Shown: positions 32,492-60,179 of the stretch, one piece after another
Layout of the letters: every line of letters begins with the position of its first letter
How positions within the stretch are numbered: position 1 is the stretch's first letter
Origin: Cellulomonas flavigena DSM 20109
GTDB lineage: Bacteria; Actinomycetota; Actinomycetes; Actinomycetales; Cellulomonadaceae
Assembly: GCF_000092865.1 (NCBI RefSeq)
Contig: NC_014151.1
Span: 1,240,001-1,304,000 of the forward strand
Direction of reading: 5' to 3'
Length of the DNA stretch: 64,000 nucleotides
Program-made: the position numbers and the translations under genes
The notes under the pieces: model-generated
Told to the model about the DNA's origin: nothing
The model's input: only the letters and a program-made list of their open reading frames with translations
Database searches by the model: none

Positions 32492-32516
32492 CCGGTGGAC
32501 CCCATGCTCGATCCCG

Positions 32517-39213: not shown

Positions 39214-40128
39214 ATGGGCACCCATGAGGACCCACCTGGCCCCGCGCGCGACCCGGACGGCGACCACGTGCTGCGGGTGACGCTGCGCGGCGTCGGCGTG
39301 CCGACGGTCGTCCTCGGCTCCGGGGAGACCCTGCTCGTCGGCCGCGACCCGCAGCCCTTCCTGCCGGACGACGACGCGGACGCGCAGCTGCGCAGCACCG
39401 CGCTGACGCTGCCGCGCGCGGCGCCGCACGTCTCGCGCGTGGTCGGCGAGATCGTCGTGGGCGAGGAGGTCGTGCGGCTGCGCTGGCGCGGCTCGACCGA
39501 GGCGCAGCTGTCGAGCCTGTTCGACGCCCCGGGTGGGGCGCGTCGCGTCGCACTGAGCGACGGTATGGCTGCCCTGCTCGACGAGGGTGAGAACCACATC
39601 CTCCTGCTGCGCGGGCGTCAGACGGGCCCGGGCCGGTACACCGACCTCGTGCTCGTCGTCGACGTCACGATCCCCGCCGACCCGCGCGAGACCCGCCCCT
39701 GGGTGCCCGACCCCGACCTCGAGGGCGCGGTCACCGCGCCCGCACCGCGCCTCGAGCGCTGGTCCCGCGAGTGGTACGTCGCGCTCGCGCTGGCCGAGCC
39801 GTGGCTCGTCGGGGCCGACGACTACCCGCGGCCGGCGTCGAACCGGGAGATCTACGAGCGGGTCCTGGCGTGGCGCGGGCACGCGTGGAACCTCGAGCGC
39901 GCGCAGCGCGTCGACGACGCGATCCGCGTGATCGCCCGCATGGCGTTCGGCCCCGCCGACGACCCGTTCTCGCAGGGCGGCGGGCGCGTGCAGAACGTGC
40001 GTTTCGCGGTGGGCCGGCGCGCCGCCGAGGTGCGGCTCGTGACGGCCGAGGACCTGGGCGTCGTGGCCGCCGCGCAGGCCCGTGGCGAGGGTCTCAACCC
40101 GGAAGGTTCCACCCCCGCCGGGCTGTAG
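39214..40128 (+). CDS. FHA-domain protein with possible helix-turn-helix C-terminal region
   Basis: A 304-residue protein. Residues about 19-130 look like a forkhead-associated phosphothreonine-binding domain (ETLLVGRDPQPF, then LPRAAPHVSRVVGEI, then LLDEGENHILLLRG). The C-terminal part has SNREIYERVLAWRGHAWNLE followed by DDAIRVIARMAFG, which could form a winged or plain helix-turn-helix. That reading is my inference. The start may be ATG 39214 or the in-frame ATG 39184. It is the first gene of the secretion/surface locus, and its last codons contain the GGAAGGTTCC element that controls the next gene. The natural upstream partner is the kinase at 57342-59114. Confidence 0.65.
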   Translation: MGTHEDPPGPARDPDGDHVLRVTLRGVGVPTVVLGSGETLLVGRDPQPFLPDDDADAQLRSTALTLPRAAPHVSRVVGEIVVGEEVVRLRWRGSTEAQLSSLFDAPGGARRVALSDGMAALLDEGENHILLLRGRQTGPGRYTDLVLVVDVTIPADPRETRPWVPDPDLEGAVTAPAPRLERWSREWYVALALAEPWLVGADDYPRPASNREIYERVLAWRGHAWNLERAQRVDDAIRVIARMAFGPADDPFSQGGGRVQNVRFAVGRRAAEVRLVTAEDLGVVAAAQARGEGLNPEGSTPAGL

Positions 40129-40153
40129 CCCGGCCCCCGGTGGCCCCTAGCGT
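40101..40153 (+). promoter_or_regulatory. Shared promoter module, site 1 (before WXG100 gene)
   Basis: GGAAGGTTCCACCCCCGC begins at 40101, and TAGCGT (40148-40153) follows the GGAA-N2-TTCC dyad after exactly 37 bases. The same arrangement is found at 40500-40552 and, on the minus strand, at 60179-60127. The element lies inside the last codons of the FHA gene. Confidence 0.75.
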
Positions 40154-40187
40154 CGCGGCACAGCCACGACGACCCAGGGAGACCGGG

Positions 40188-40463
40188 ATGTACGACAAGA
40201 GCACCTTCTTCGGTATCGACGCCCAGCAGAGCCGCCAGCACGCCCGCGCCATGCGGACGGGGGCCGGCCAGCTCGACGGGATCGTGGGCCAGATCGGCTC
40301 GCTGCTGGACTCCGTGCAGTGGTCCGGGCCCGGCGCCGACCGCTTCGTGGGCGAGTGGTCGGGCGCGCTGCGCCCCGAGCTGCGGGCTGCCGCGGAGAAC
40401 ATCCGTGAGAACAGCGTGGAGCTGGACCGGCGCGCCCAGATGCAGGAGGACGCGAGCCGGTGA
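40188..40463 (+). CDS. WXG100-family protein
   Basis: A 91-residue all-helical protein of the ESAT-6/WXG100 superfamily. The turn is SVQWSGPGADRF with the WSG motif near residue 45, and the flanking heptads predict two antiparallel helices. WXG100 proteins are small substrates or partners of type VII secretion. ATG 40188 follows GGGAGACC. No YxxxD/E secretion motif is obvious at the C-terminus, which ends RRAQMQEDASR. The promoter module upstream is shared with two other genes of the locus. Confidence 0.9.
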   Translation: MYDKSTFFGIDAQQSRQHARAMRTGAGQLDGIVGQIGSLLDSVQWSGPGADRFVGEWSGALRPELRAAAENIRENSVELDRRAQMQEDASR

Positions 40464-40499
40464 GGCCCCCGCGGCGCCCGCTCGGCGCCGCTGTGCGGC

Positions 40500-40552
40500 G
40501 GAACCTTCCACCCCCGCGACGCTGGCTCCCGCCGCGAGCCGCTCCCTAGCGT
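40500..40552 (+). promoter_or_regulatory. Shared promoter module, site 2 (before the 376-residue candidate substrate)
   Basis: GGAACCTTCCACCCCCGC begins at 40500, then TAGCGT at 40547-40552 with a 37-base gap after the dyad. Beyond the hexamer, CG(C/A)GGCACA is also shared with site 1. The start codon is 54 bases downstream. Confidence 0.75.
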
Positions 40553-40606
40553 CGAGGCACACCACCGACCCCGAGCCGGACCAGCCGGCCCCGCAGGAGG
40601 CAACCG

Positions 40607-41737
40607 ATGTCCCAGCTCCAGGCCCGCTCCTTCCAGGGCTCCGACGTCGACGGGCTCGACCGCATCGTCCGTCGGATGAACGACGCCGCGGACTTCGCGG
40701 ACAACGTGGTCAAGGCGCTGAAGGTGCTCGCCGCGGCGCTCGACGCGATGTCGTGGACCGGGTGGGCGGCCGCCTTCGCCCGCTACCTGCGCGGTGTCGT
40801 GATCCCGTGGGTGCAGACGGTCTCGCGCTACCTCCGCGGGTTCGGCAAGGTGCTCGCGCTCATCTCGGCCACGCAGAAGGCCACGAGCTCCGACACCCCG
40901 ACGGTGCACATCCCGGCGGCCGCGTTCACGCAGGTCACCTACCCGAAGGCGTCCGCGGCGAACGCGCCGATGCTCACGGCCCCGACGCCGGCGATCGCCC
41001 CGGCCCAGCAGGGCGGCGGCGCGGCCGGCGCCGGTGCCCAGGTCCAGACGCCGCCGTCGATCGGCTCCGTGACGATCCACATCCATGGCGCCGAGGGCGC
41101 CGGGGCGAGGGTCACCACCCCCGACGCGGTGCCGGTCGTGCGCACCGAGACGTCGAACGTGACGGGCGGCGGGAAGGTCACGGTGACGCCGGAGGGCATC
41201 ACGGTCCAGCCCGCGTCGGCGTTCACGGGCGGCGGCTCCGGCGCCGTCCAGGGTGGCGGCTCGGTCGCCCCGTTCGCCGCGAGCCCCTCCGGAGCGATCG
41301 GCGGCGGGTCCGCCGGCGGCGCGGGCGGAGGGCTCTCGGGTGGCGGCTCGGCCGGCGGGGTGTCGGGCGGCGGGTCGGTGGCGCCGACGTCCGCCGGGAT
41401 CGGCGCACCGACGGGCAGCGACACGCCCGGCAGCGGGATCGACCCGCGCGGTGTGTCCGGCCAGCCCACCGTGTCCGCGACACCCGTGGGCATCGGCGGG
41501 GCCGGCGGCGGTGACGCGCGCGCCGCGGCCGCCGCGAGCATGGCCTCGCTGGAGAACGGCTCGCGCCCGCCGATCGCGCTCGCGGCGGCACCTCTGGGCC
41601 TCGCGGCGCTCGGCGCAGCGGCGTTTGGTGCCGTGCGCGCCAGGAACGAGGAGGACGACGACGCCGCGGACGGTGACGACACCGACGCCCGGCCCGTGCC
41701 CGTCGAGCTCACGATCGACAGGCGGAGCGGGCGGTGA
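40607..41737 (+). CDS. Candidate type VII-like substrate or surface protein with helical N-terminus and C-terminal anchor
   Basis: A 376-residue protein. The first about 105 residues are helical, with DAMSWTGWAAAFARYLRG holding a WTG turn, as in WXG100, LXG or PPE-type N-termini. The middle is a long Gly/Ser/Ala/Pro-rich region (about 205-300, many GGGS units). Near the C-terminus, a hydrophobic segment (about 325-345, LAAAPLGLAALGAAAFGAV) precedes an acidic tail with EEDDDAADGDD. I see no family name to attach. It has its own promoter module and is coupled to the next gene by GTGA. Confidence 0.7.
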   Translation: MSQLQARSFQGSDVDGLDRIVRRMNDAADFADNVVKALKVLAAALDAMSWTGWAAAFARYLRGVVIPWVQTVSRYLRGFGKVLALISATQKATSSDTPTVHIPAAAFTQVTYPKASAANAPMLTAPTPAIAPAQQGGGAAGAGAQVQTPPSIGSVTIHIHGAEGAGARVTTPDAVPVVRTETSNVTGGGKVTVTPEGITVQPASAFTGGGSGAVQGGGSVAPFAASPSGAIGGGSAGGAGGGLSGGGSAGGVSGGGSVAPTSAGIGAPTGSDTPGSGIDPRGVSGQPTVSATPVGIGGAGGGDARAAAAASMASLENGSRPPIALAAAPLGLAALGAAAFGAVRARNEEDDDAADGDDTDARPVPVELTIDRRSGR

Positions 41738-42204
41738 GCGCGGCCACCGTCGAGCACCCCGGCCCTCTGCTGCCCGGTGCCCCGCGCTTCCGCTTCACGC
41801 TGCCCGACGGGTGGCGGGTGGCCCCGGCGCCGCGCGCGCTCGCGGTGGCCCGGCCCGCGGCCGAGCCCGGCGGGTTCGTGCCGAACCTCACGGTGACCGC
41901 GGACCTCGTCCCGGCCGGCACGACGTCCGTCGAGGTCCTCGCGGCGATGCTCGCGGAGTACCCGGGGGACACCCACCCCGCGGACGACGGGGACGCAGCA
42001 TCGGTCCGCCTCACGCGGCCGCACGCGGCCGGGACGGTCCACCAGCGGGTCGACGTGCTCGTCGACCCGACCCCGGTGCCGGGTGACCACCGGCACGCCC
42101 TGACCGTCGTCTCGAGCTGGTCCGAGTCGACACCCTCCGACCTGCGCGACGCCCTCGCGGCCGCGCACACCTCCGTCCGGCTCGGTACCGACGACCCGGC
42201 CTGA
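41734..42204 (+). CDS. LpqN/LpqT-like domain protein
   Basis: A 156-residue soluble protein with no signal peptide or lipobox. The FRFTLPDGWRVAP start, FVPNLTVTADLVP core and HALTVVSSWSE end recall the LpqN/LpqT domain (a PsbP-like fold), a family linked to type VII secretion loci in mycobacteria and corynebacteria. In those bacteria many members are lipoproteins, whereas this one appears cytoplasmic. GTG 41734 overlaps the upstream stop. A role as a chaperone or adaptor for substrates of the locus is a guess. Confidence 0.65.
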   Translation: MSAATVEHPGPLLPGAPRFRFTLPDGWRVAPAPRALAVARPAAEPGGFVPNLTVTADLVPAGTTSVEVLAAMLAEYPGDTHPADDGDAASVRLTRPHAAGTVHQRVDVLVDPTPVPGDHRHALTVVSSWSESTPSDLRDALAAAHTSVRLGTDDPA

Positions 42205-42207
42205 CCC

Positions 42208-42233
42208 ACGGCACGGCCACACGGCACGGCCAC
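42208..42233 (+). repeat. Two direct 13-bp repeats
   Basis: ACGGCACGGCCAC occurs twice without a gap (42208-42220 and 42221-42233) in the leader of the second WXG100 gene. A 6-bp hairpin (CCGGGC 42244-42249, GCCCGG 42255-42260) follows. Function unknown. Confidence 0.6.
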
Positions 42234-42282
42234 CACGACGGCACCGGGCACCGCGCCCGGGCACCTCACGAAGGAGAAGCAC

Positions 42283-42549
42283 ATGAGCAACGTCCTCGGC
42301 ATGGACATCGCCGCAGCCCGCGACCTCGTCCGCCTCATGAACGTCGACGCCGACAACATCACGCAGATCACGAGCCGCCTCACCCAGCAGCTCCAGTCGA
42401 CGCCGTGGTACGGCCCCGACGCCCAGCGGTTCAACTCCGACTGGTCCGGCCAGTACGTGCCCGCCCTGAACCGCGTGGTCGAGGCGCTGCAGGCGAACGC
42501 CGCGGCCCTCGCGCAGCAGGCGGACGACCAGGAGACGGCCTCGTCCTGA
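42283..42549 (+). CDS. Second WXG100-family protein (WYG form)
   Basis: An 88-residue helical hairpin protein. The turn is STPWYGPDAQRF, i.e. WYG at about residues 44-46, followed by WSGQYVPALNRVVEAL. A strong Shine-Dalgarno GAAGGAGA precedes ATG 42283. It probably pairs with the WXG100 protein at 40188 as a heterodimer or forms homodimers. It stands directly before the ATPase gene, separated from it by 140 bp holding two stem-loops. Confidence 0.9.
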   Translation: MSNVLGMDIAAARDLVRLMNVDADNITQITSRLTQQLQSTPWYGPDAQRFNSDWSGQYVPALNRVVEALQANAAALAQQADDQETASS

Positions 42550-42560
42550 CCCCCGCCGCC

Positions 42561-42604
42561 CGGGGCACGGGTCCGGTCCCCACGGGGGCGCGGCCGGTGC
42601 CCCG
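42561..42604 (+). terminator. First stem-loop between WXG100 and ATPase genes
   Basis: CGGGGCAC (42561-42568) pairs exactly with GTGCCCCG (42597-42604), with a GC-rich 28-base interior. It starts 11 bp after the WXG100 stop. Confidence 0.45.
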
Positions 42605-42605
42605 G

Positions 42606-42642
42606 CGGGCGGGTGCGCGGCCGAGCGGCCCGCACCCGCCCG
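42606..42642 (+). terminator. Second, stronger stem-loop before the ATPase gene
   Basis: A perfect 12-bp stem (42606-42617 with 42631-42642, core GGGCGGGTGCG) whose loop can itself pair GGCC with GGCC. It probably reduces read-through into the ATPase gene or protects the upstream WXG100 mRNA. Confidence 0.55.
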
Positions 42643-42689
42643 TGCCCCGCGACCACGTCACACGCATCTCACGACCAGGAGCACCCACC

Positions 42690-45600
42690 ATGTGGCGCCT
42701 GAGCATCCAGCCGACCCGCGACAGCGGGCTGCGCCCCGTCGACGTCGAGGTCGTCGCCCGGGACGGCGCACGCGTCGCCGACCTGGCGCGCGCGCTCGCG
42801 GCGCACCTCGGTGCGGGCGCCGGTGCGCTGCTGGCCCCCACGACCGACGGCACGCCGTGGCCGGCGTCGCTGCCGCTGGTGCACGCGCCGCTGCGGACGG
42901 GCGCCGTGCTGCCCGTCGCCTCCGTGCCCGCGGCGTGGCTCGACCGGCCCGGCGGGCGCCGCCCCGTCCGGGCGCGCGTCCGCGTGGTCGCCGGCCCCGA
43001 CGCGGGGACCGACGTCGACGTCGAGTCCGACGCGTTCACGGTCGGCCGCGGCTCGTTCGCGACCGTGCGCCTCACGGACCCCTCCGTCTCGCGCGTGCAC
43101 GCCCGCGTGCTGCTCACCGGCGGCGTCGTCGTCAGCGACGAGGGCTCCGCCCACGGCACCCGCGTCGGCGGGCGCGCCGTCGTCCGCGCGCAGCCCGTCG
43201 ACTGGGGCGAGCGGGTCGAGGTGGGCCGCACGACCTTCGAGGTGCACCGCGGCGACACCGCGCCGCTGCCGACCGACGACGGCGTGCTGCGGCCGCCGCG
43301 CTTCGGTGCGCAGCTCCTGCCCGAGGAGCTCGAGGTGCCCGCGCCGCCGACCGCGCCGCGCCGCACGCCGATGCCGTGGCCGATGATGCTCATGCCCGTC
43401 GTGCTCGGCGGGTCGATGTTCGCCACGAGCCGCAGCCCGTTCTCGCTGGTCTTCATGCTCGGCTTCCCGCTCATGATGCTCGTGCAGCACCGCGTGGCGC
43501 GGCGTCAGGCGCTCGCGGAGCACGAGGAGCAGCTGCAGGCGTGGCGGCACGACGTCGACGACGTCCTGGAGCGGCTCGACGCCGCGGCCGTCGTGCAGCG
43601 CCGCCGCGCGGCGCAGGACGAGCCGGACCTCGTCACGGTGCGCGAGCGCGTCGCCTCGCGCGACCCCGGCACGTGGGCCCGCCAGCGCGACGACGAGGAC
43701 TTCCTGCAGGTCCGCGCGGGGTTGGGCCCGCGCCCGGCGGTCGTCACCGCCAAGGTGGCGCGGGGCGGTGACCGGGTGCAGCGCGACCTCGTGGCGCGGG
43801 AGCTCGCCACCCGCACCTCCCTGGCCGGCCAGCCGGTGCCGCTCGTGCTGGGCGGGCACCGGGTGGCTGCCGTCGTGTGCCGTGACCGTGCCCGCGCGGA
43901 CTCCGCGGTGCGCGCGCTGCTGGTGCGCCTGGCCGCCGCGCACTCGCCGACCGACGTGACGTTCGCGGCCGTCCTCGGGTCGGACGCGACGCACGTCGAG
44001 GCGTGGCTGCGCTGGCTGCCGCACGCCGCGCCGCGCATCGCGGGCCTGCCGCCCGTGGCCGTCGGCGCCGCCGACGGCGGCGCGCTGCTCGAGGCGCTCG
44101 TGTCGGGCGACGGCGAGCGCGGCCACGTCGTGTGCCTGGTCGACGAGGACGCGGGCGTGCGCCGCCGTGCGGTCGAGGCGGTCGCCGCCGCTGCGGGCGA
44201 GCGCAACGTCCACCTGCTGTGGGTGGGCGCCGACCCCGCGCGCGTGCCCTCGGCGACCGACGTCATGCTCGACCTCGACGCGGGTCTCGTGCGGCGCCGC
44301 GACCGCGGCGGCGACGACGTCGTGGAGGTCGTCGACGAGCTCGACCTCGCCGGTGCCTGGCACACCGCGCGCACCCTCACCGCGTTCCGGGACGAGGCGG
44401 CCGTCGTGCCGCCCGACAGTGCGCTGCCCGCCTCGGTGCGCCTGCCCGAGCTCGGCAGCGACCTGCGTGACCCCGACGACGCGGGCGCCGTGCTCGACCG
44501 CTGGGCGTCCGCAGGGGGCCTGCGTGCACAGCTCGGTGCCGGCGCGGACGGGGTCGTGACGATCGACCTGCGCGAGGACGGCCCGCACGGGCTCGTGGCC
44601 GGCACGACGGGCTCCGGCAAGAGCGAGCTGCTGCAGACCCTGCTGTGCTCGCTGGCGACCAACAACCCGCCCACGCGCATCACGTTCCTGCTCGTCGACT
44701 ACAAGGGCGGCGCGGCGTTCCGCGAGTGCGCGGACCTGCCGCACACCGTCGGGTACATCACCGACCTCACCCCGGCGCTCGTGCAGCGCGCGCTGATCTC
44801 GCTGCGCGCCGAGCTGACGTGGCGCGAGCACCTGCTCGCCGAGCACGGGGCCAAGGACCTCGTCGCGCTCGAGAAGCTGCGGCCCGACGTCGCCCCGCCC
44901 AGCATGCTCATCTGCGTCGACGAGTTCGCCGCCCTGCTCGGCGAGGTCCCGGAGTTCGTCGACGGCGTCGTCGACGTCGCCCAGCGCGGTCGGTCGCTCG
45001 GCATGCACCTGCTGCTCGCCACGCAGCGCCCCGCCGGTGTCGTGACGCCGCAGATCAAGGCCAACACCGACCTGCGGATCGCGCTGCGCATGGCGTCCAC
45101 CGACGACTCGACGGACGTCATCGAGGCGCCCGACGCCGCGTCGCTGTCGCGCCGCACGCCCGGGCGCGCGTGGCTGCGGCGCACCGGCCACGGCACGCGC
45201 GAGCTGGTGCAGGTCGCGTGGGTGGGCGCCCACGAGCCCGCGCGCGACGAGGTCGCCGCGGTGCAGGTCCGCGCGCTGAGCGCCCGCACCGACGCGACGC
45301 CCAGCGGAGCCTCGGGGCGCGTGCACGAGCGCTCGGACCTCGAGCGGCTCGTGCTGACCGTGGGGGAGGCGTTCGCACGGTCCGGGCTCGCCACGCCCAA
45401 GAAGCCCTGGCTGCCCGCGCTGCCCGACGAGGTCCTGCTCGCCGGTGGCGCACCCGGCACGCTCCTGCTCGGCGCCGACGCGCGCGACGAGGCGGCCGTG
45501 CCCGGCGCCACGTCCGACGTGCACACGTGCGTGCCCGACCCCGGCGTCCTGCCGCTGGGCATCGCCGACCAGCCCGACGAGCAGTCGCAGCACCCGCTGC

Positions 45601-47060
45601 TGGTCGACTACGCACGGGCCGGGCACCTGCTGGTGCACGGTGCCTCGGGCAGCGGCAAGACCGAGCTGCTGCGCACGGTGGCGGCGGCCGCCACGCTCGC
45701 GCACGACCTCGCGCCCGCGCTCGTCTACGGCATCGACTCCGCGGGCGGCGGCCTGTCGGGCATCGAGTCCCTGCCGTCGGTCGGGTCGGTCGTGGTCGAG
45801 CAGCAGCCCGAGCGCGTCACGCGGCTCGTGCGGATGCTGCACCGCACCCTCACCGAGCGCAACGCGCTGCTCGCCCGCCACGGTGCCGCGGACGTCGAGG
45901 CGCTCGCCGCCACGGGCGTCGTGCTGCCGCGCGTCCACGTGCTGGTCGACAACCTGCCGCAGCTCGTCGAGCACCTCGAGGGTGGTGGGCCGCTGCGCCG
46001 CGCGCACGTCGACCAGCTCGTCGCCGTGCTGCAGGACGGTCGCCGCTGCGGCGTGCACGTCACCGCGACGACGCCCCGACGCACGGGCCTGCCGTCGGCG
46101 CTCGCGGGCGCGTTCGGGCAGCGGCTCGTGCTGCGCATGACGACGGTCGACGACTACCAGGTGCTCGGCGTGCCGCAGAACGTCCTCGACGACCGCACCG
46201 CGCCGGGCCGTGGGCTGCTCGGGCGCACCGAGGTGCAGATCGCCACCGTCGGCGGCTCGGGCACGCCGCAGCAGGTCACGTACCTGCGGGCCGTCGCGGA
46301 GCGGGAGGGTGCGCGCTACGCGCAGCAGCCGCCGGTCGTCGTCCCGGTGATGCCGACGCGTGTGCCGGTCGACCTCGTCCCCGCCCCCGAGCGCGACGAC
46401 GTGTGCCTCGGCGTGGACGCCGACCTCGCGACGGGCGTCGTCCTGCCGCTGCTGCCCGCGCCCCTGCTCGTGCTCGGACGCGGCGGCTCGGGCCGCACGT
46501 CGTTCCTCCTCGGTCTGGCGCAGGCGGTGGGGCGCGCCACCCACCCGCCCGCCGCGGTGCACCTGCTCGGGCCGCGGGCCCGGGCCGACGCTGGCCCGGC
46601 CACTGCCGTCGCCGACCCCACCGCGGCGGCGGCGGTGCTCGAGGGGATCCTCGCGGCACCGGTGCCTCGGGACGACGCGTGGCGTGTGCTGCTCGTGGAC
46701 GACGTGCACGAGTGGGAACGCGGCTGGGAGCGCGGGGGTGCGGAACGACGGCTCGTCGAGCTCCTCGCGCAGGTCGTCGAGGAGGGCCCGGCGCGTCGGG
46801 TGGCGGTCGTCCTGGCCGCCGACGCCGACGAGGCGCGCGCCCGTCAGCACGTCGCGGGAGCGGTCACCGCGGCTCGCCGCTCGCGCCGCGCCGTCCTCCT
46901 CGGGCCCGAGATGGCGGACGGCTCGCTCGTCGGCGCGTCGGTGCCCATGCACAGCCACGAGCCCATGGGTGGCGTCGGTCGCGGGCTGCTCGTGAGTGCC
47001 GGAAGTGTCCGAGTTGTCCAGGTACTATCGTCCACCGTCGATCGGGAGTCCGTCAGTTGA
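42690..47060 (+). CDS. FHA-bearing FtsK/SpoIIIE-type secretion ATPase, EssC/EccC-like
   Basis: A 1456-residue motor of type VII-like secretion. Layout: a ubiquitin-like N-terminal region (1-90), an FHA domain (about 110-190, VGRGSFATVRL then PSVSRVHARV), two membrane spans (about 228-265) and three FtsK-type ATPase domains. ATPase 1 is intact: Walker A GTTGSGKS at 638-645, Walker B MLICVDEFAAL. ATPase 2 has GASGSGKT (984-991) but LVDNLPQL at the Walker B site. ATPase 3 has GRGGSGRT (1263-1270), with Arg in place of the Walker Lys. A single chain with N-terminal FHA is the Firmicutes EssC plan rather than split mycobacterial EccCa/Cb. No eccB, eccD, eccE or mycP is near. It overlaps the next gene by TTGA. 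Confidence 0.9.
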   Translation: MWRLSIQPTRDSGLRPVDVEVVARDGARVADLARALAAHLGAGAGALLAPTTDGTPWPASLPLVHAPLRTGAVLPVASVPAAWLDRPGGRRPVRARVRVVAGPDAGTDVDVESDAFTVGRGSFATVRLTDPSVSRVHARVLLTGGVVVSDEGSAHGTRVGGRAVVRAQPVDWGERVEVGRTTFEVHRGDTAPLPTDDGVLRPPRFGAQLLPEELEVPAPPTAPRRTPMPWPMMLMPVVLGGSMFATSRSPFSLVFMLGFPLMMLVQHRVARRQALAEHEEQLQAWRHDVDDVLERLDAAAVVQRRRAAQDEPDLVTVRERVASRDPGTWARQRDDEDFLQVRAGLGPRPAVVTAKVARGGDRVQRDLVARELATRTSLAGQPVPLVLGGHRVAAVVCRDRARADSAVRALLVRLAAAHSPTDVTFAAVLGSDATHVEAWLRWLPHAAPRIAGLPPVAVGAADGGALLEALVSGDGERGHVVCLVDEDAGVRRRAVEAVAAAAGERNVHLLWVGADPARVPSATDVMLDLDAGLVRRRDRGGDDVVEVVDELDLAGAWHTARTLTAFRDEAAVVPPDSALPASVRLPELGSDLRDPDDAGAVLDRWASAGGLRAQLGAGADGVVTIDLREDGPHGLVAGTTGSGKSELLQTLLCSLATNNPPTRITFLLVDYKGGAAFRECADLPHTVGYITDLTPALVQRALISLRAELTWREHLLAEHGAKDLVALEKLRPDVAPPSMLICVDEFAALLGEVPEFVDGVVDVAQRGRSLGMHLLLATQRPAGVVTPQIKANTDLRIALRMASTDDSTDVIEAPDAASLSRRTPGRAWLRRTGHGTRELVQVAWVGAHEPARDEVAAVQVRALSARTDATPSGASGRVHERSDLERLVLTVGEAFARSGLATPKKPWLPALPDEVLLAGGAPGTLLLGADARDEAAVPGATSDVHTCVPDPGVLPLGIADQPDEQSQHPLLVDYARAGHLLVHGASGSGKTELLRTVAAAATLAHDLAPALVYGIDSAGGGLSGIESLPSVGSVVVEQQPERVTRLVRMLHRTLTERNALLARHGAADVEALAATGVVLPRVHVLVDNLPQLVEHLEGGGPLRRAHVDQLVAVLQDGRRCGVHVTATTPRRTGLPSALAGAFGQRLVLRMTTVDDYQVLGVPQNVLDDRTAPGRGLLGRTEVQIATVGGSGTPQQVTYLRAVAEREGARYAQQPPVVVPVMPTRVPVDLVPAPERDDVCLGVDADLATGVVLPLLPAPLLVLGRGGSGRTSFLLGLAQAVGRATHPPAAVHLLGPRARADAGPATAVADPTAAAAVLEGILAAPVPRDDAWRVLLVDDVHEWERGWERGGAERRLVELLAQVVEEGPARRVAVVLAADADEARARQHVAGAVTAARRSRRAVLLGPEMADGSLVGASVPMHSHEPMGGVGRGLLVSAGSVRVVQVLSSTVDRESVS

Positions 47061-52860: not shown

Positions 52861-53828
52861 GCCACGACCCCGCGGCGACCGTCGCCGAGTTCCGCGTCCT
52901 GCACGGACGTGTGGTCGACGCCGTCGAGCAGGCCGTGCACGGCAAGCGACCCGTGGTGGAGCTCGTGGTCGCGGCGCTCTTCGCCGGTGGCCACGTCCTG
53001 CTCGAGGACGTGCCCGGCACGGGCAAGACGACGCTCGCCCGCGCCCTCGCCGCGGCGCTGGGCGGCACGTCACGCCGCATCCAGTTCACGCCCGACCTGC
53101 TGCCGGCCGACGTCACGGGCACCTCCGTGCTCGACCCGGCCACCGGCGCCGTGCGGTTCCGGCCCGGCCCGGTGTTCGCGCACGTCCTGCTGGCGGACGA
53201 GATCAACCGCGCCGCCGCCAAGACGCAGTCCGCCATGCTCGAGGTCATGGCCGAGGGCACCGTCACGGCGGACGGCGCGACCCATGCCGTGCCGGCGCCG
53301 TTCCTCGTGGTCGCGACGCAGAACCCCGTCGACCTCGACGGGACGTACCGCCTGCCCGAGGCGCAGCTCGACCGGTTCCTGCTGCGCGTCAGCCTGGGCT
53401 ACCCCGACCTGGAGCACGAGGTGGCGGTGCTGCACCCGGGCTCGTCCGCGGGCGACGTCGCCGCCGTGCCCACCGTCACGAGCCCCGCGGACGTCGCGCG
53501 GCTGTCCCGCGAGCTGCGTGGCGTGCACGTCGCCGACCCGCTGCTGCGGTACGTGCGCGCGCTCGGCGAGGCCACCCGCACCGACCCGCGCACCCGGCTG
53601 GGCGCGAGCACGCGCGCGCTGCGTGCGCTCGTCGGCGCCGGCCAGGTCCAGGCCGCGGCGCAGGGGCGGCACTACGTGGTGCCCAGCGACGTGCAGTCGC
53701 TCGCCCACGCCGTGCTCGAGCACCGGCTCATCCTGCGGCGCGAGGCCCTGCTCGAGGGCGTCACTCCCACCGACGTCGTCGCGTCCGCGGTCGAGGCCGT
53801 CGACGTGCCGCGGCCCGCGGCCGTCTGA
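52857..53828 (+). CDS. MoxR-type AAA+ ATPase
   Basis: A 323-residue AAA+ protein of the MoxR group, chaperone-like ATPases usually encoded with DUF58 and transglutaminase-like genes. Walker A is VPGTGKTTLA (Gly54-Thr58 core), Walker B is VLLADEINRA, sensor 1 is VVATQNPVDLDGTY, and the C-terminal lid contains LGASTRALRALV. Shine-Dalgarno GAGGAGA precedes ATG 52857, which overlaps the FN3 paralogue B stop. It corresponds to the AAA-ATPase of the PFNA order. Confidence 0.93.
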   Translation: MSHDPAATVAEFRVLHGRVVDAVEQAVHGKRPVVELVVAALFAGGHVLLEDVPGTGKTTLARALAAALGGTSRRIQFTPDLLPADVTGTSVLDPATGAVRFRPGPVFAHVLLADEINRAAAKTQSAMLEVMAEGTVTADGATHAVPAPFLVVATQNPVDLDGTYRLPEAQLDRFLLRVSLGYPDLEHEVAVLHPGSSAGDVAAVPTVTSPADVARLSRELRGVHVADPLLRYVRALGEATRTDPRTRLGASTRALRALVGAGQVQAAAQGRHYVVPSDVQSLAHAVLEHRLILRREALLEGVTPTDVVASAVEAVDVPRPAAV

Positions 53829-53839
53829 GGCCGGGCGCC

Positions 53840-55027
53840 GTGTCCCGTCGTCTGCGCCCCACCGGGCGCGGGATCGCGCTCACCGCCGTGGGCGCCCTCG
53901 CGCTGGGGCTGGGCCTCGTCGCGCGCTACCCCGGCCTCGTGGCGCTGGGAGCGGCGGCCCTCGGGCTCGTCGTCGTCGCGGTGGTGAGCCTGCTGCTGCC
54001 GGTGCCGCTGGACGTCACCCACCGCCTCGTGCCCGGGCGCGTCGCGCGCCTCGGCTCGGCCGCCGCGCACATCGCGCTGCGGAACGCCTCGCCGTGGCTG
54101 TCCGTGCGGGTCGCCGGCACCGACAACGTCGGCGGGCGCGACATCGCGATGGCACCGACCCGGCTGGCGCCGCGCGACTCCGGTGTGGTCGAGGTGCCGG
54201 TGCCCACGGAGCGCCGTGGCCTGCTGCCGGTCGGGCCGTTCGTGCTCGAGCGCCGGTCCCCGGCGGACCTCGTGCGCTCGCGCGAGCGGCGTGGCGGGTC
54301 CTCGACGCTGCAGGTCACGCCCCGGCTCATCGTCGCGTCCGGACCGCCGACGGGCCGCCGCCGCGGCCACTCCGGTGCGCAGGAGCGCGTCGAGCACGGC
54401 GGCACCGACCTCGTGGGGCTGCGCGAGTACGTGCCGGGGGACGACCTGCGCCGCGTGCACTGGGCGAGCAGCGCGCGCCACGGCATCCCGATGGTGCGCG
54501 AGGACGCCGACCCCGCCGAGCCGCACCTCACCGTGCTGCTCGACGACCGGGCGTCGGCCTACCGGCCGGGGACCGCGGGCGACGGCTTCGAGGAGGCCGT
54601 CGACGTCGCCGCGTCCCTGGTGCACGCGTGCGCCTCCGGGGGTGTGCCGGTGCGCTGCGTGACGCTGTCCGGGTCGCTCGACGTCGCCGCACCCGCCGGT
54701 GTGCCCGGCAGCGACGAGCCGCTGCGTGCGGCGGCGCACGCGGTCGACCGGCTCACGCTCGTCGCGACGACCGACCGTCCGCTGGCGGGCACGGTCACCG
54801 TCCCGTCCGGCGGCGGGCCGGGGCCGGACGTGCTCGCGGTCGTCACGGGGGCGGCCGCACCCGTGCCGCCGCTGCTGCTCGCGGCGCGGGGTGCGGACAC
54901 GGTCGCGCTGCTCGTGGTCGACCCGGCGCCGCTGCGGTCGCTGGGTGCGGCCGACGCCGCGACCGTCGTGCGCGGACCGCGCGCCGAGGACCTGCTGCGC
55001 GGCTGGGACCTGGCGGTGGCGCCGTGA
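53840..55027 (+). CDS. DUF58 membrane protein
   Basis: A 395-residue protein with two N-terminal spans (about residues 13-32 and 35-55), an extracellular or membrane-proximal beta region and the DUF58 signature LVGLREYVPGDDLRRVHWASSARHG (read in parts, about 193-217), followed by a vWA-like fold with LTVLLDDRAS. DUF58 proteins act with MoxR ATPases. GTG 53840 is 11 bp after the MoxR stop; the stop overlaps the next start (GTGA). No MIDAS motif is complete, as is common in DUF58. Confidence 0.9.
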   Translation: MSRRLRPTGRGIALTAVGALALGLGLVARYPGLVALGAAALGLVVVAVVSLLLPVPLDVTHRLVPGRVARLGSAAAHIALRNASPWLSVRVAGTDNVGGRDIAMAPTRLAPRDSGVVEVPVPTERRGLLPVGPFVLERRSPADLVRSRERRGGSSTLQVTPRLIVASGPPTGRRRGHSGAQERVEHGGTDLVGLREYVPGDDLRRVHWASSARHGIPMVREDADPAEPHLTVLLDDRASAYRPGTAGDGFEEAVDVAASLVHACASGGVPVRCVTLSGSLDVAAPAGVPGSDEPLRAAAHAVDRLTLVATTDRPLAGTVTVPSGGGPGPDVLAVVTGAAAPVPPLLLAARGADTVALLVVDPAPLRSLGAADAATVVRGPRAEDLLRGWDLAVAP

Positions 55028-57318
55028 CGCCCGCACCGGGCGCCCAGGGCGCCGACCGCGGCCCCGGCGCGGCCGTCACGCTCTGGGCCGTCGCGCTGCT
55101 CGCGCTGGCGTGCGTCCCCGTCGCGGCCGCGTTCACGTCGCCGGTCGTGCTGCTCCCGCTCGTCGGGGTCGTCGGCCTCGCGTTCGCCGTCGTGGCGCTC
55201 GCGCGGCGGCTCGCGGTCCCGCCGTGGGCCACCGGCGCCGCCGGTGTGACGCTCGTGCTCGCGTCCGCGACGTCCCTCGCGCGCCTCGGCGCCGACGCCG
55301 CACCCGTGGCCGACGCCGACCTCGACGGTGCCGGCTGGCGGAGCACCGGGGCAGCCCAGCTCCTCGGGCCGCTCGCCGACGCGGTCGCACGGCTCCTCAC
55401 AGCGCCGCGGCCCGCCGCCCCCGCGCTCGCACCGCCGGTCGTCGCGCTCGTCGCACTCGTCGCCCTCACGGTGGCGCTCGCGCTCGGTCGCCGCTCGGCG
55501 GCCCGGGTCGCACCGCTCACGGGCGCGGTCGTCGTGTACGGCGTCGCGCTGCTGCTCACCGCGGGCGCCGCCGACCGCGGCGCGGTGGGGGCGGGGCTCG
55601 TCGCGCTCGCCGCCGCCGGCTGGATGCTGCTGGACGGCGAGGCGCTGGCACGCGACGGTGCGCGGCCCCGGCTGGGGCGTGCGCCGCGCCGGGCCCGCAC
55701 CCGGTGGCGCAGCAGCGGCGTCGCGGGGCTGCTGGTCGTCGCGCTCGTCAGCGCCGGGGGTGCTGCGGCCGCCGCGGCCGTCACCGGGGACGCCTTCGAG
55801 CCGCGTGACCACGTCGCACCGCCGCGTGTGCCGGCCGCCGTCGTGCACCCGCTCGCGGAGCTCTCGCGCTGGCAGTCCGACGCCGACGCCACCGTGCTGC
55901 GCGTGCGCGGCACGCACCCCGGCTACCTCACGTGGGTCACGCTGCCCGACCACGACGGCGCCGGCTGGCATGCCGACCTCGCCCTGCGCCCGCTCGGGAC
56001 GGTCGTCGAGCCCTCGCTCCCGCCGGGCGCTGCGCGCGGTGACGTGGACGTCGAGGTGCAGCTCGTGGAGATCGCCGGGCCGTCGGGCTCCCCGGGCTCG
56101 TGGCTGCCGGCGACCGCCGAGGTCGTGGCCTCGGACGCGCCCGGCGTCCTGGCCGACGTGGACGCGGGTGTCCTGGCAGTCCCGCCGACGCCCGAGGGGC
56201 GGCTGCCGGAGGGGCTCGTCTACCGCGTGCGCGGGCACGTCGACGTGCCCGACCCCGCGCTCGCCGTGCGCGCCGGCGTGCCCGGCGGCGAGGAGGTCGA
56301 ACGGTACCTGCGGCTCGAGCGGTTCCCCGCGGACCTGCGTGCCTACGCGCAGGACGTCGTCGCGGACGCGTCCTCGCGCCTCGACCAGGCGGAGCGCCTG
56401 GCTGCGACGGTGCGCGCGGACCGCGAGCTGGCGGCCGACGCCGTGAGCGGCACGTCCTACGCGCGCCTGCGCGAGTTCCTCTTCGCGGAGCGGGAGGCCG
56501 GGGGGCAGGTCGGTACCAGCGAGCAGTTCGCCGGTGCGTTCGCCGTGCTCGCGCGCGCCGTGGGGTTGCCGTCGCGTGTGGTCATGGGCTTCGTGGTGCC
56601 CGGTGGCGCCGCGACGGACGACGAGACGCTGCGCGACGTGCACGGGTCCGACGTGCGTGCCTGGGCCGAGGTGTACCTCGCCGGGACGGGGTGGGTGAGG
56701 TTCGACCCGGCGCCGGACGCCGTGACGACGTCGGCCGTCGACCAGGTGCCGCCCGAGCAGCAGGAGCAGACCGCCACCCAGGACGACCCGCCGCCGGTGC
56801 CGGAGGACGAGCAGCCGCAGGAACCCGCGACGCCGCTGCCCGGAGGGCAGGACCGGCGGGTGGATCCCGCCGTCGTGATCGTGGCTGCCGCGGCGACGCT
56901 CCTGCTGGCCGCGCTCGGGGCGTGGCTCGCCGTGCTGGGTGCGCGCCTCCTGCGCCGTGGCCGGCTGCGCCGTGCCGGTGCCGTCGGGGCGTGGCAGCAC
57001 GCCGCCGACGCGCTGCTGCTGCGCGCGGGTGCGCCGGCGCCGGGCGAGACAGCCGACGACCTCGCGCGGCGCATGACCGAGCTGTGCGGCGTGCCCGCCC
57101 ACGGGTTGGCCACCGCCGCGCAGGCCGTCGCGTTCGGGGCCTCACCCGTGCCGGCGCCGGGCGCGTGGCGCACGGCGGTGCAGGTGCAGCGCCGGCTGCG
57201 GGCGGGTGCGCCTCTCGGCCGGCGGCTCACCTGGTGGGCGGACCCCGCGCCGCTGCGACGGCGTGCGGGCACGGGCGGGCGAGGCGCAGGGCACCGACCG
57301 GGGCCGTCACGGCGGTGA
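55024..57318 (+). CDS. TgpA-type transglutaminase-like membrane protein with lost catalytic residues
   Basis: A 764-residue protein: about six N-terminal spans (residues 15-250), an extracellular transglutaminase-like domain (about 430-570), a Pro/Gln/Glu-rich linker, one more span (about 615-640) and a cytoplasmic DUF4129-like end. In active relatives the core has Cys in a GxCxxFA motif and His in an AHAW motif. Here the first reads VGTSEQFAGAF with Ser499 in the Cys place, and the second SDVRAWAEVY with Arg545 in the His place; only Asp561 (RFDPAP) remains. The protein therefore probably binds rather than cleaves or cross-links. GTG 55024 overlaps DUF58. It converges on the kinase gene, 23 bp away. 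Confidence 0.88.
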   Translation: MTPAPGAQGADRGPGAAVTLWAVALLALACVPVAAAFTSPVVLLPLVGVVGLAFAVVALARRLAVPPWATGAAGVTLVLASATSLARLGADAAPVADADLDGAGWRSTGAAQLLGPLADAVARLLTAPRPAAPALAPPVVALVALVALTVALALGRRSAARVAPLTGAVVVYGVALLLTAGAADRGAVGAGLVALAAAGWMLLDGEALARDGARPRLGRAPRRARTRWRSSGVAGLLVVALVSAGGAAAAAAVTGDAFEPRDHVAPPRVPAAVVHPLAELSRWQSDADATVLRVRGTHPGYLTWVTLPDHDGAGWHADLALRPLGTVVEPSLPPGAARGDVDVEVQLVEIAGPSGSPGSWLPATAEVVASDAPGVLADVDAGVLAVPPTPEGRLPEGLVYRVRGHVDVPDPALAVRAGVPGGEEVERYLRLERFPADLRAYAQDVVADASSRLDQAERLAATVRADRELAADAVSGTSYARLREFLFAEREAGGQVGTSEQFAGAFAVLARAVGLPSRVVMGFVVPGGAATDDETLRDVHGSDVRAWAEVYLAGTGWVRFDPAPDAVTTSAVDQVPPEQQEQTATQDDPPPVPEDEQPQEPATPLPGGQDRRVDPAVVIVAAAATLLLAALGAWLAVLGARLLRRGRLRRAGAVGAWQHAADALLLRAGAPAPGETADDLARRMTELCGVPAHGLATAAQAVAFGASPVPAPGAWRTAVQVQRRLRAGAPLGRRLTWWADPAPLRRRAGTGGRGAGHRPGPSRR

Positions 57319-57341
57319 CGACGCGCCGGCCGGTGCGGGGG

Positions 57342-59114
57342 TCACCCCGCGCCGGCGGCGACCCGGTCCGTCACGCACTCCCGCGGCGACATCCCCTTGT
57401 GGTCCGCGTCCGCGAGGTCGATGGCCAGGACGGTCAGGCAGACCGTGGGGGCGTTCGGGTCCACACCCTCGATGGTGACCTCGTTGATGCCCGCGTCGAC
57501 GACCTTGAGGGCCACCCCCAGCTCACCCGCCTCGTTCACCTGGTCCGGATCGACGACCACGAAGGTCACGTCGCCGTTCGTCGGGTCGCTCCAGCTCAGC
57601 GTGAGGCTCGTCCCGCCGTCGACGAGCGCCAGGTCCTGCGGGGCGATCGTGTCGTCCAGGACCGGGGCCTGCAGCGGACCGTCGGCGGTCGGCAGCGGAC
57701 CCTCGTGCACGGGGACGTCGACGGCGCCGGCCGTCGGGGTCGGCAGGGCCGCGACGAGCGCGGCGCGGCGCTGCGCGTTCGCCCACACGGTGACGCCCAC
57801 GCCGACGGCGCTGCCGAGCAGGATCGCACCGCCCATGAACGCGGCCACGGGCACCCAGGCGGGGCGCCGGCGGCGCGGCGAGCCCGCAGTGGTGCGCGGA
57901 CTCGCCGCGGTCGGCACCGCCTGCTCCGGGTGGACGCCCGTGTCCTCGTCGTCGGTGGTCGGGGGCGGCGCCGCGCCGCTCGCGCTGAGCAGCGACAGCG
58001 CGGACGGCGCGAGCGACCGGTCGTCCTCCGGCTGGACGGGCGGCAGCGTGAGCGGAGGGAGCGCGGGAGGTGCCGACGACACGGGCGCGGGCGCCGGCGT
58101 CGCAGCGACCGGGTCACCCGTCGCACCGGCGGGCGCGTACGAGCGCGCGGGCGGGCCCGCCGCCCAGGTGGGCGGTGGGACCGCTCTCGTGCCCCGGACG
58201 GGGGTGGCGGTGTGCGGGTCCGCAGCCGCGCCGGGGGACCACGAACGCGTCTCCGTGGGCAGTGCGAGCAGCGCGGCATGCACCTCCTCGGCCGTGGCGA
58301 ACCGGCCCTCGCGGTCGTGCGCGAGACAGCGCTCGACGAGTGCGCGCAGGCGGTCCGGGACGTCGGCACGCGCCAGCTCACGGCGCTGCCCGGTCCGCAC
58401 GCGGCGCAGGTAGCCCAGAGCGGTGTCGTCGGCCGGGTCGGGTGCGGCGAAGGGCGCGCGGCCGTCGAGCAGCGTGGACATCGTGGAACCGAGCGACCAG
58501 ACGTCGTCGGTCGGGTCGGGATCCAGGCCGTCGAGCACCTGGGGTGACGCGTGCCGGTAGCTGAAGCGCTCGAGCGAGGCGGTGTGCCCGGCGTCGGCCA
58601 TGCGCGCGATGCCGAAGTCCGTGAGCACGTACGACGTGGGCAGCACCAGCACGTTCTGCGGTTTCACGTCGCGGTGCAGCACCCCGTGGCGGTGCGCGAA
58701 CCGCAGCGCGTCCGCGACCGCGGTACCCGCGGCCACGACCTCGGCGACCGGCAGGGGACCGTGGCTGCGCAGCCGGTCGTGCAGCGAGCCCAGGTCGTAG
58801 AAGTCCATGACGAGGCACGGGTGGCCCTGCCTCGTGGTCGCGGTGTCGAGCACGGTGACGATGTGCGGGTGCTGGCGTCCCAGGCGCACGGTGATCTCGA
58901 GCTCCCGCGCGAACCGGGCGATCGTCGCGGGGTCGGTCTCGAGCAGCACCTTGATCGCGACGTCCCGGTGCAGCGCGGCCTGGTGCGCCCGGTAGACGAC
59001 GGAGTCCCCGCCGCGCGCGACCTCGCGCACGTCGGTGAGGCCGGGCAGGCCGAGGTCCACCTCGGTCCGCGTGCTGCGCGCGGGCGCGGGTGCCCACAGC
59101 TGGTCGTCGTCCAT
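57342..59114 (-). CDS. Transmembrane Ser/Thr protein kinase, PknB-like
   Basis: A 590-residue receptor-type kinase. Kinase domain (about residues 25-280): Lys55 in VAIKVLLE, catalytic loop LHRDVKPQNV with Asp149, and LTDFGIARM. The glycine loop is weak (ARGGDSVVY). A long Pro/Ala/Thr-rich juxtamembrane region (about 290-415) with many possible phosphosites precedes one span (about 418-440). The extracellular end of about 150 residues looks FN3-like (SLTLSWSDPTNGDVTFVVV) and lacks PASTA repeats. It corresponds to the kinase of the PFNA order and is the obvious source of phosphothreonine for the two FHA domains of the locus. Confidence 0.9.
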   Translation of the reverse strand: MDDDQLWAPAPARSTRTEVDLGLPGLTDVREVARGGDSVVYRAHQAALHRDVAIKVLLETDPATIARFARELEITVRLGRQHPHIVTVLDTATTRQGHPCLVMDFYDLGSLHDRLRSHGPLPVAEVVAAGTAVADALRFAHRHGVLHRDVKPQNVLVLPTSYVLTDFGIARMADAGHTASLERFSYRHASPQVLDGLDPDPTDDVWSLGSTMSTLLDGRAPFAAPDPADDTALGYLRRVRTGQRRELARADVPDRLRALVERCLAHDREGRFATAEEVHAALLALPTETRSWSPGAAADPHTATPVRGTRAVPPPTWAAGPPARSYAPAGATGDPVAATPAPAPVSSAPPALPPLTLPPVQPEDDRSLAPSALSLLSASGAAPPPTTDDEDTGVHPEQAVPTAASPRTTAGSPRRRRPAWVPVAAFMGGAILLGSAVGVGVTVWANAQRRAALVAALPTPTAGAVDVPVHEGPLPTADGPLQAPVLDDTIAPQDLALVDGGTSLTLSWSDPTNGDVTFVVVDPDQVNEAGELGVALKVVDAGINEVTIEGVDPNAPTVCLTVLAIDLADADHKGMSPRECVTDRVAAGAG

Positions 59115-59163
59115 CGCTCCTCGGTCCGCCTCGTCCGGACGCGTCCAACGTCCGGCCCCGAGA
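59115..59163 (-). promoter_or_regulatory. Short gap with clustered CGTCC/GGACG palindromes
   Basis: CGTCCGGACG (59132-59141) and GGACGCGTCC (59137-59146) are overlapping perfect 10-bp palindromes, followed by ACGTCCGG. They lie 18 bp before the kinase start and may be an operator or stem-loop. A GAGGAGC Shine-Dalgarno is present for the kinase. Confidence 0.35.
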
Positions 59164-60096
59164 CTAGCGGCGGGTGTCCAGCGTGCCGTCGCCCGTCCCG
59201 GTGAGGCCCTGCCAGGCGTCCTGAGCGCGGATCGCGACCTCCTCGGCTGCGGTCACGACCAGGGCGCCGGGGGTCGCGACCATGCCCCACGCGCCGGCCA
59301 CGTCGAACGACGCGTCCATGCGCTGCGTGAACCGCTCCCCGAACGCCGTGCCCGCCATGCCCCGGTTGACGGCCTCACCGATGTCGGTGCCGATGTCCCA
59401 CGACGCGTTGAGCGCGGCCGCGGGCACGGTCAGGGCGGGCGACAGGCTCGCGCCGTTGAGCACCGCGGTCACACCGTTGTCGACGGTCCCGTACAGGTTT
59501 CCCGAGCGGTGGGCCGTGACGGCCTTCGCGGCGCTGTCCGCGGTGGACACCACGGTGGCGGCGGTGAACGCCCCACCGAGCGCGGGGCCGATGTGCGCTC
59601 CCGTCATGATGTTCGTCGCCTGGTTGAGCGTGCGGGTGGACGACATGACGTTGTCCCACCGCAGGTCGGCCGCGACCATGGCGGCGGAGATCGCGACCTT
59701 CTGGCCGTCGCCGACGGCGCTCGCGACCGTCGCCAGCGCGCCCCAGCCCGCGGCGACCTTCTCCTTGAGCTGCGCCCACGTGCCGCCCCCGGGCGGAGCT
59801 GCCGGGGTTGCCGCGGTCGCGCCCGTGGCGGCGCTCGCGGTCTCCTGCCGCTCGGCCTCCTCGAGCAGGTGCAGCGCCGCGCCGTTGAGCGCCTCCGCGA
59901 CGCGCAGGAGCGCCGGCGCGTGCTGCGTGCGCCACTCGTCCCGTCGTCGCGCGGCGTCCTGGCCGCGCCACGCCAGGGCGTCGAGCGCGGCGGTGATCCG
60001 CCGCACGCACGTGACGATCGCCTCGGTCGCCCCGTGCAGGGACACCGCCTGCTGCCGCAGTGCGGCGACGTCGGCGCCGTGGAACGCGTCGGACAT
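59164..60096 (-). CDS. WXG100-like N-terminal domain fused to a hydrophobic C-terminal domain; candidate type VII-like substrate
   Basis: A 310-residue protein. Residues 1-95 form a WXG100-like helical hairpin with the turn DALAWRGQDAARR (WRG at about 43-45). After an Ala/Thr/Pro linker (about 96-115) comes a helical region rich in Ala, Val and Gly (about 120-300, AISAAMVAADLRW, GPALGGAFTAATVVS, TPGALVVTAAEEVA) with no enzyme or toxin motif I can name. Long proteins with a WXG100/LXG head are typical type VII substrates. It has the shared GGAA-N2-TTCC promoter module although it lies 20 kb from the other two copies and on the other strand. Confidence 0.72.
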   Translation of the reverse strand: MSDAFHGADVAALRQQAVSLHGATEAIVTCVRRITAALDALAWRGQDAARRRDEWRTQHAPALLRVAEALNGAALHLLEEAERQETASAATGATAATPAAPPGGGTWAQLKEKVAAGWGALATVASAVGDGQKVAISAAMVAADLRWDNVMSSTRTLNQATNIMTGAHIGPALGGAFTAATVVSTADSAAKAVTAHRSGNLYGTVDNGVTAVLNGASLSPALTVPAAALNASWDIGTDIGEAVNRGMAGTAFGERFTQRMDASFDVAGAWGMVATPGALVVTAAEEVAIRAQDAWQGLTGTGDGTLDTRR

Positions 60097-60126
60097 GGGT
60101 CTCCCTCGGGTCGGTGGTCGGTCCCG

Positions 60127-60179
60127 AGCGTCGCGCGGGCCGTGCCCCGGAGTCGAGCGTGGCGGGGGTGGAAGGTTCC
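60127..60179 (-). promoter_or_regulatory. Shared promoter module, site 3 (minus strand)
   Basis: On the minus strand GGAACCTTCCACCCCCGC starts at 60179; after the dyad, 37 bases lead to GACGCT (60132-60127), which keeps A2 and T6 of a -10 hexamer. The ATG of the 310-residue gene is 30 bases further. Spacing is identical to sites 1 and 2. Confidence 0.7.

Follow-up and report, generated by a model that had tools for sequence, protein, structure and literature searches.

The window analysed here, 64,000 nucleotides of the soil bacterium Cellulomonas flavigena DSM 20109 (NC_014151.1, positions 1,240,001 to 1,304,000), carries, as judged from its gene content, a type VII secretion locus, and contains three copies of the 18-base element GGAANNTTCCACCCCCGC. 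Element 1 (40101..40118, plus strand) consists of the palindrome GGAAGGTTCC followed by ACCCCCGC and overlaps the 3' end of a gene at 39268..40128 (plus strand) that encodes a candidate dedicated regulator; elements 2 (40500..40517, plus strand) and 3 (60162..60179, minus strand) were both found by sequence search as GGAACCTTCCACCCCCGC. Each element is followed on its own strand by a -35-like and a -10-like hexamer, i.e. TGTAGC (40124..40129) and TAGCGT (40148..40153) for element 1, TGGCTC (40523..40528) and TAGCGT (40547..40552) for element 2, and TCGACT (60151..60156) and GACGCT (60127..60132) for element 3. In all three cases, the -35-like hexamer, the box being defined on 87 sites described below, lies 18 bases before the -10-like hexamer, which in turn lies 37 bases past TTCC. 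Thus, the three sites, their strands and their exact 37-base gaps, all reported in a first-pass annotation of this DNA, were confirmed.

The same annotation described the genes behind the elements as having a WXG100-like N terminus or turn, a description that needs small corrections. The gene behind element 1 (40188..40463, plus strand) encodes a 91-residue protein with a Pfam WXG100 match that, at 23.7 bits, falls below the curated cut-off of 27.3 bits. The genes behind elements 2 and 3 are larger, lack a Pfam match, and encode WXG-like turns that were recognised by eye (MSWTGW and AWRGQD, respectively): a 376-residue protein with a Gly/Ser-rich middle and a hydrophobic stretch near the C terminus (40607..41737, plus strand) and a 310-residue WXG-type substrate candidate (59164..60096, minus strand). 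A Ser/Thr protein kinase gene (57342..59114, minus strand) starts 49 bases behind the gene for the 310-residue protein, and this pair is also present in both other genomes of the genus with a third site (G041 in L015 and G068 in L013); because the pair is kept, element 3 may drive the kinase gene as well. The remaining genes of the locus, all on the plus strand, encode a 156-residue cluster protein with relatives in several of the 67 loci described below (41734..42204, overlapping the preceding gene), a second WXG100-like protein of 88 residues (42283..42549; 28.3 bits, under the NCBIfam cut-off), an EccC/EssC-like FtsK/SpoIIIE ATPase with an N-terminal FHA domain (42690..47060; scanned from 42687, with the start placed at MWRLS by comparison), two large fn3-domain proteins (47126..49996 and 49996..52860, both starts approximate) and, by domain scan, a MoxR-type AAA ATPase (52872..53828), a DUF58 protein (53840..55027) and a TgpA/transglutaminase-core protein (55024..57318).

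The actinobacterial T7SSd comprises a WXG100 protein, an ATPase with an FHA N terminus, a Ser/Thr kinase, the large Ig-like envelope protein TsdI and the small single-helix protein TsdH (Garrett et al. 2024, PMC11217815). With reference to the main text of that report, the window locus resembles T7SSd in having WXG100 proteins (below curated cut-offs), an FHA-ATPase and a Ser/Thr kinase; by contrast, it adds the 39268..40128 gene, the 40607 protein, the two fn3 proteins, which could act as TsdI, and the MoxR, DUF58 and transglutaminase genes. In its main text, Cellulomonas and Nocardioides are not mentioned, and the parts consulted here describe no promoter element.

The 4.12-Mb genome contains three exact copies of the 18-base string, all of them within the window and each 37 bases ahead of its hexamer. 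No further copies were found genome-wide at up to one mismatch and one more at two mismatches, and the backward-read pattern had no match in the genome. Searching the window at up to three mismatches returned three matches, every one exact; in 100 shuffles of the window, the same search gave a mean of 0.58 matches, and 5 of the 100 reached at least three.

One genome per species was scanned for the regulator gene, which gave 68 loci; one of these, a 43-residue match in a metagenome bin (L097), was dropped. The remaining 67 loci span Cellulomonas, Xylanimonas, Actinotalea, Pseudactinotalea, Occultella, Serinibacter, Georgenia, Microbacterium, Phycicoccus, Janibacter, Nocardioides, Phytoactinopolyspora, Nakamurella, Rhodococcus, Actinophytocola, Saccharothrix, Kibdelosporangium and others. 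They hold 292 oriented palindromes, and a TANNNT hexamer lies at a distance of 35-37 bases in 117 of these (74 at 37, 35 at 36 and 8 at 35) compared with 26 over the 77 other distances combined. Thus, the fixed spacing of 37 bases proposed earlier is true of the three sites in the window, while relatives show 35-37. The composite site is present in 58 of the 67 loci, including all 35 in which an FHA-ATPase gene lies near the regulator gene.

The anatomy of the putative promoter was derived from 87 secretion-linked sites selected for TANNNT. These sites share the pattern GGAANNTTCC-ACCC, followed by a TNGMC box whose T falls at position 23 and whose G falls at position 25, and then CCTAGCGTC. 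The TNGMC box is -35-like, lies 17-18 bases before the -10 hexamer and has its T in 82 of the 87 sites (58/60 and 24/27); it matches TTGACA partially and would make a poor -35. The distance from the palindrome to TNGMC is constant in both spacing classes, and the one-base difference between the classes falls between TNGMC and the -10 hexamer. If the -10 hexamer occupies positions -12 to -7, the centre of GGAANNTTCCACCC would lie near -54.

In a comparison made without selection for TANNNT, 81 palindromes located at most 260 bases ahead of the start of a secretion gene and on the same strand were set against the 211 other orientations, a group that still includes true sites before unrecognised genes as well as reverse readings of true sites. 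The upstream palindromes had ACC in 64 cases, NCC in 75, the T in 73, the G in 66, TANNNT in 73 and NANNNT in 79 (hexamers at 35-37 bases), whereas the corresponding numbers among the 211 were 22, 87, 59, 107, 44 and 63. Six of the eight upstream palindromes without TANNNT precede relatives of the 310-residue protein, and in five of them the hexamer is GACGAT or GACCAT; a GA-type hexamer similar to the GACGCT of element 3 thus recurs upstream of related substrate genes. The products of the downstream genes are WXG100 proteins and WXG-type substrates; in some relatives, they include the secretion FHA-ATPase (9 of the 81 upstream palindromes, none in the window). In total, we conclude from these alignments that a predicted three-box promoter, consisting of GGAANNTTCCACCC, TNGMC at a constant distance and TANNNT 17-18 bases further on, is conserved before secretion genes.

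Promoters of extracytoplasmic function (ECF) sigma factors with GGAAC and CGTC are known, and in these the CGTC/GTT -10 lies ~16 bases from the GGAAC -35. Both strings are present here, the CGTC within TAGCGTC, and could be read as such a promoter; however, the distance from GGAAC to CGTC is ~45 bases, and conservation extends to the second palindrome arm and to ACCC. The ECF reading was therefore rejected on spacing, and we regard it as very improbable.

The overlap of element 1 with the 3' end of the upstream gene also raises the possibility that its conservation stems from coding of the protein's tail or, as the few shuffles that reached three matches might suggest, from chance in GC-rich DNA. 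Among 48 loci compared for this overlap, four had no palindrome in range; across lineages, the overlap uses two reading frames (6 and 26 loci), and it is absent in 12 of the 48 loci. The two frames together with the non-overlapping cases therefore argue for selection on DNA. Moreover, elements 2 and 3 lie elsewhere, and the spacing histogram, the genome-wide rarity and the controls are at odds with chance. These counts already refute coding constraint and chance alike, we assign the two together a negligible probability, and the earlier statement that the pattern is hard to explain by chance was borne out.

The gene at 39268..40128 adjoins the type VII locus and was assigned a GTG start at 39268 by alignment with relatives. 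Of the candidates scored, 628 are homologous to it at E ≤ 0.001, and the family is mostly annotated as 'hypothetical protein'. Alignment A1 comprised 46 of the 120 homologues listed among the 628 found, these 46 being 63-89% identical to the 39268..40128 product; alignment A2 comprised 44 of the 65 C-terminal parts found in the 67 loci. The product has an N-terminal FHA fold and a highly conserved, helical C terminus with weak helix-turn-helix (HTH) matches. Foldseek with the C-terminal domain alone gave no match at E ≤ 0.001, and a PDB sequence search with A1 or A2, as well as Pfam, returned nothing useful. In Saccharothrix, Kibdelosporangium and others (L075-L080, L082-L093 and L095), the regulator gene has a different neighbourhood with a kinase gene ~4 kb upstream, and many of these loci have palindromes ahead of genes for two membrane proteins, one small and the other of ~210 residues.

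The element and the regulator gene tend to occur together. Among the 81 genomes of the genus, six have the regulator gene, and exactly those six have sites ahead of secretion genes. Of the remaining 75 genomes, two have chance-like matches at up to one mismatch (three in G073 and one in G075), which were rejected as secretion promoters on inspection. In a second genus of 118 genomes (g47; Nocardioides by likeness of the loci), the 12-base core GGAANNTTCCACCC was found in 12 of the 14 genomes with the gene versus 11 of the 104 without it (Fisher p ~1e-8, which serves as a guide only since the species are related); moreover, 16 of the 33 core matches in this genus, in 11 genomes, lie at most 700 bases from the 3' end of the regulator gene. 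For a class-wide sample, the 11-base GGAANNTTCCACC was too short, as it matches 175 of 296 genomes, and its two to five matches in each of eight genomes with a candidate regulator were not used as proof.

Twenty-six loci have the regulator gene and no recognised secretion gene in the stretch of DNA covered. These were scanned with a matrix trained on the 87 plus-strand composite sites of L030-L071, L073 and L094, without L069 and L040:16967, and yielded nine hits of at least 20 bits, all beside the 3' end of the gene. Neither eight first-order random resamplings of 21 of these loci nor all 26 loci read in reverse gave a hit of at least 20 bits; with the threshold set to 12 bits, a single hit came from one of the eight resamplings compared with 13 real hits. 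The matrix test was first applied to 21 of the 26 loci; L065, L066, L067, L069 and L096 were scanned later and had no hits of at least 12 bits.

Taken together, these observations suggest that a dedicated activator probably binds the element at promoters of the housekeeping-sigma type in the type VII locus, with the adjacent gene at 39268..40128 as the best candidate for the activator. The first-pass proposal of a dedicated site defining a small secretion regulon is thus supported by conserved sequence, spacing and gene class, by rarity and by co-occurrence with the regulator gene, while the activation that it included is suggested by the position of the palindrome. Several observations weigh against our interpretation. 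Five loci beside fn3 genes or a kinase lack the element, and the nine positive loci in the matrix scan are close relatives, which makes the interpretation slightly less likely. In addition, 17 of the 26 loci in that scan have no strong site, the regulator and secretion genes mostly travel together so that linkage is no proof of binding, and the HTH call is weak. The latter three points would also fit an element that is read by a more general activator, e.g. a WhiB-type protein acting with the housekeeping sigma factor or a regulator encoded at an unlinked site, while the FHA-HTH protein acts elsewhere, e.g. on the secretion machine. We consider a general activator unlikely because 9 of these 26 loci retain sites next to the FHA-HTH gene and because the element is rare in genus genomes without the gene (2 of 75 at up to one mismatch).

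No open-licence paper found in our literature search was recognised as describing the element or the regulator gene, in agreement with the first-pass annotation, which knew of no described regulator; the part of PMC3388012 that bears on this describes other motifs. However, a regulator with the two-domain plan predicted for the candidate exists beside ESX-1. According to the available parts of the reports, EspM (MMAR_5438/Rv3863) has an FHA N terminus and an HTH C terminus, adjoins ESX-1 and regulates secretion-associated genes (PMC7002343, PMC11005418); it binds the whiB6-espM region, and no probe shift was seen with the N-terminal half by itself (PMC7002343), a report whose parts consulted here do not describe the present element. 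By predicted domain plan and by its place beside a type VII locus, EspM appears to be the best precedent for the candidate regulator. Unlike EspM as described there, the candidate would act, presumably as an activator, on a set of promoters that share a single element of fixed spacing and directly precede WXG100 and substrate genes. EspM is also needed for repression of whiB6 (PMC7002343), and the FHA-HTH protein might similarly bind the element and repress, keeping the secretion genes off until a signal arrives. However, the palindrome lies upstream of a poor -35 in constant register, which is the usual place of an activator, and repression therefore seems to us rather improbable.

The genome of C. 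flavigena holds 23 GGAANNTTCC palindromes, which were all read both ways to give 46 orientations. RCC lies behind the palindrome in 10 of these, and NANNNT at 35-37 bases was present in 4 of the 10 orientations with RCC versus 5 of the 36 without. The four orientations with both features are the three sites in the window and a site at 373663, which lies in the stretch 372500-376500 of this genome (L129), 0.9 Mb from the main locus. Thus, in this genome the motif is not as common at random positions as before WXG100-type genes, a comparison that the first-pass annotation had called for and that leaves its proposal standing. Site 373663 precedes a gene for a 335-residue protein with a WXG-like N terminus (14.3 bits to WXG100, below the cut-off) and a C-terminal domain similar to VgrG3 of the type VI secretion system (PF21277, E 2.4e-56); the ATG of this gene lies approximately where the transcript would begin, as if leaderless. 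This gene is a probable fourth target of the element, and the fusion protein is a candidate antibacterial type VII effector encoded far from the main locus. In Microbacterium luticocti (L044, 8010-9724), the product of a WXG-type gene that follows a GGAAGTTTCC palindrome contains an alpha/beta hydrolase domain (PF06259); therefore, the element may mark varied effectors.

For activation by the FHA-HTH protein, we propose that a dimer would bind the GGAANNTTCC-ACCC palindrome, contact RNA polymerase and recruit it to the poor -35 of a promoter that would be weak without the dimer. The WXG100, substrate (and kinase) genes would then be fired and, in some relatives, the ATPase gene as well. The constant distance between palindrome and -35, together with the slack between -35 and -10, fits an activator that touches sigma region 4 or the alpha C-terminal domain. 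With less certainty, the FHA domain may sense phosphothreonine made by the cluster kinase, and because the kinase gene lies directly behind the substrate gene of element 3, the kinase would belong to the regulon that it controls. In mycobacteria, EmbR-PknH is a case of an FHA-containing transcription factor under a Ser/Thr kinase. We tentatively suggest, as possible rather than probable, that an entire class of actinobacterial type VII systems is switched by a phospho-circuit in which the membrane Ser/Thr kinase in the regulon modifies a partner read by the FHA-HTH activator, which would fire all three-box promoters, including those of unlinked cell-wall-attacking WXG effector genes; the activator would then represent a new family of regulators that use a DNA code of their own. 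If the kinase link is true, it would connect Ser/Thr phosphorylation with the transcription of secretion cargo in bacteria other than mycobacteria. The element provides a signature by which the regulon of a little-studied type VII system can be read and searched for in genomes, and it names a testable regulator; moreover, its sequence lets unlinked effectors be sought, as with the fourth site, which points to the WXG-like/VgrG3-type fusion.

Additional palindromes were observed in the C. flavigena genome. At 2270933 (L125), GGAACCTTCC / GGAACCTTCCGACC with CCTAGCGTC at 36 bases lies before a gene for a secreted protein; it has GACC instead of ACCC, RCC is missing, and it is a possible further regulon member. 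Of two tandem palindromes at 1077312 and 1077991 (L117 and L118), each lies 59 bases ahead of the start of its own downstream gene, and the two genes, of 176 residues each, are alike; neither palindrome has ACCC, and one of them is followed by an A2/T6 hexamer at 36 bases. The palindromes GGAATCTTCCGCCCC and GGAACGTTCCACCCCCGC, at 266950 in this genome and at 292924 in G068 (L009), share a common downstream string and precede genes for alike secreted proteins with no TANNNT at 35-37 bases; the exact match in G068 was rejected as a secretion promoter. Finally, the window contains, at 30752-34405, genes for two tandem Cthe_2159-type carbohydrate-binding proteins (PF14262).

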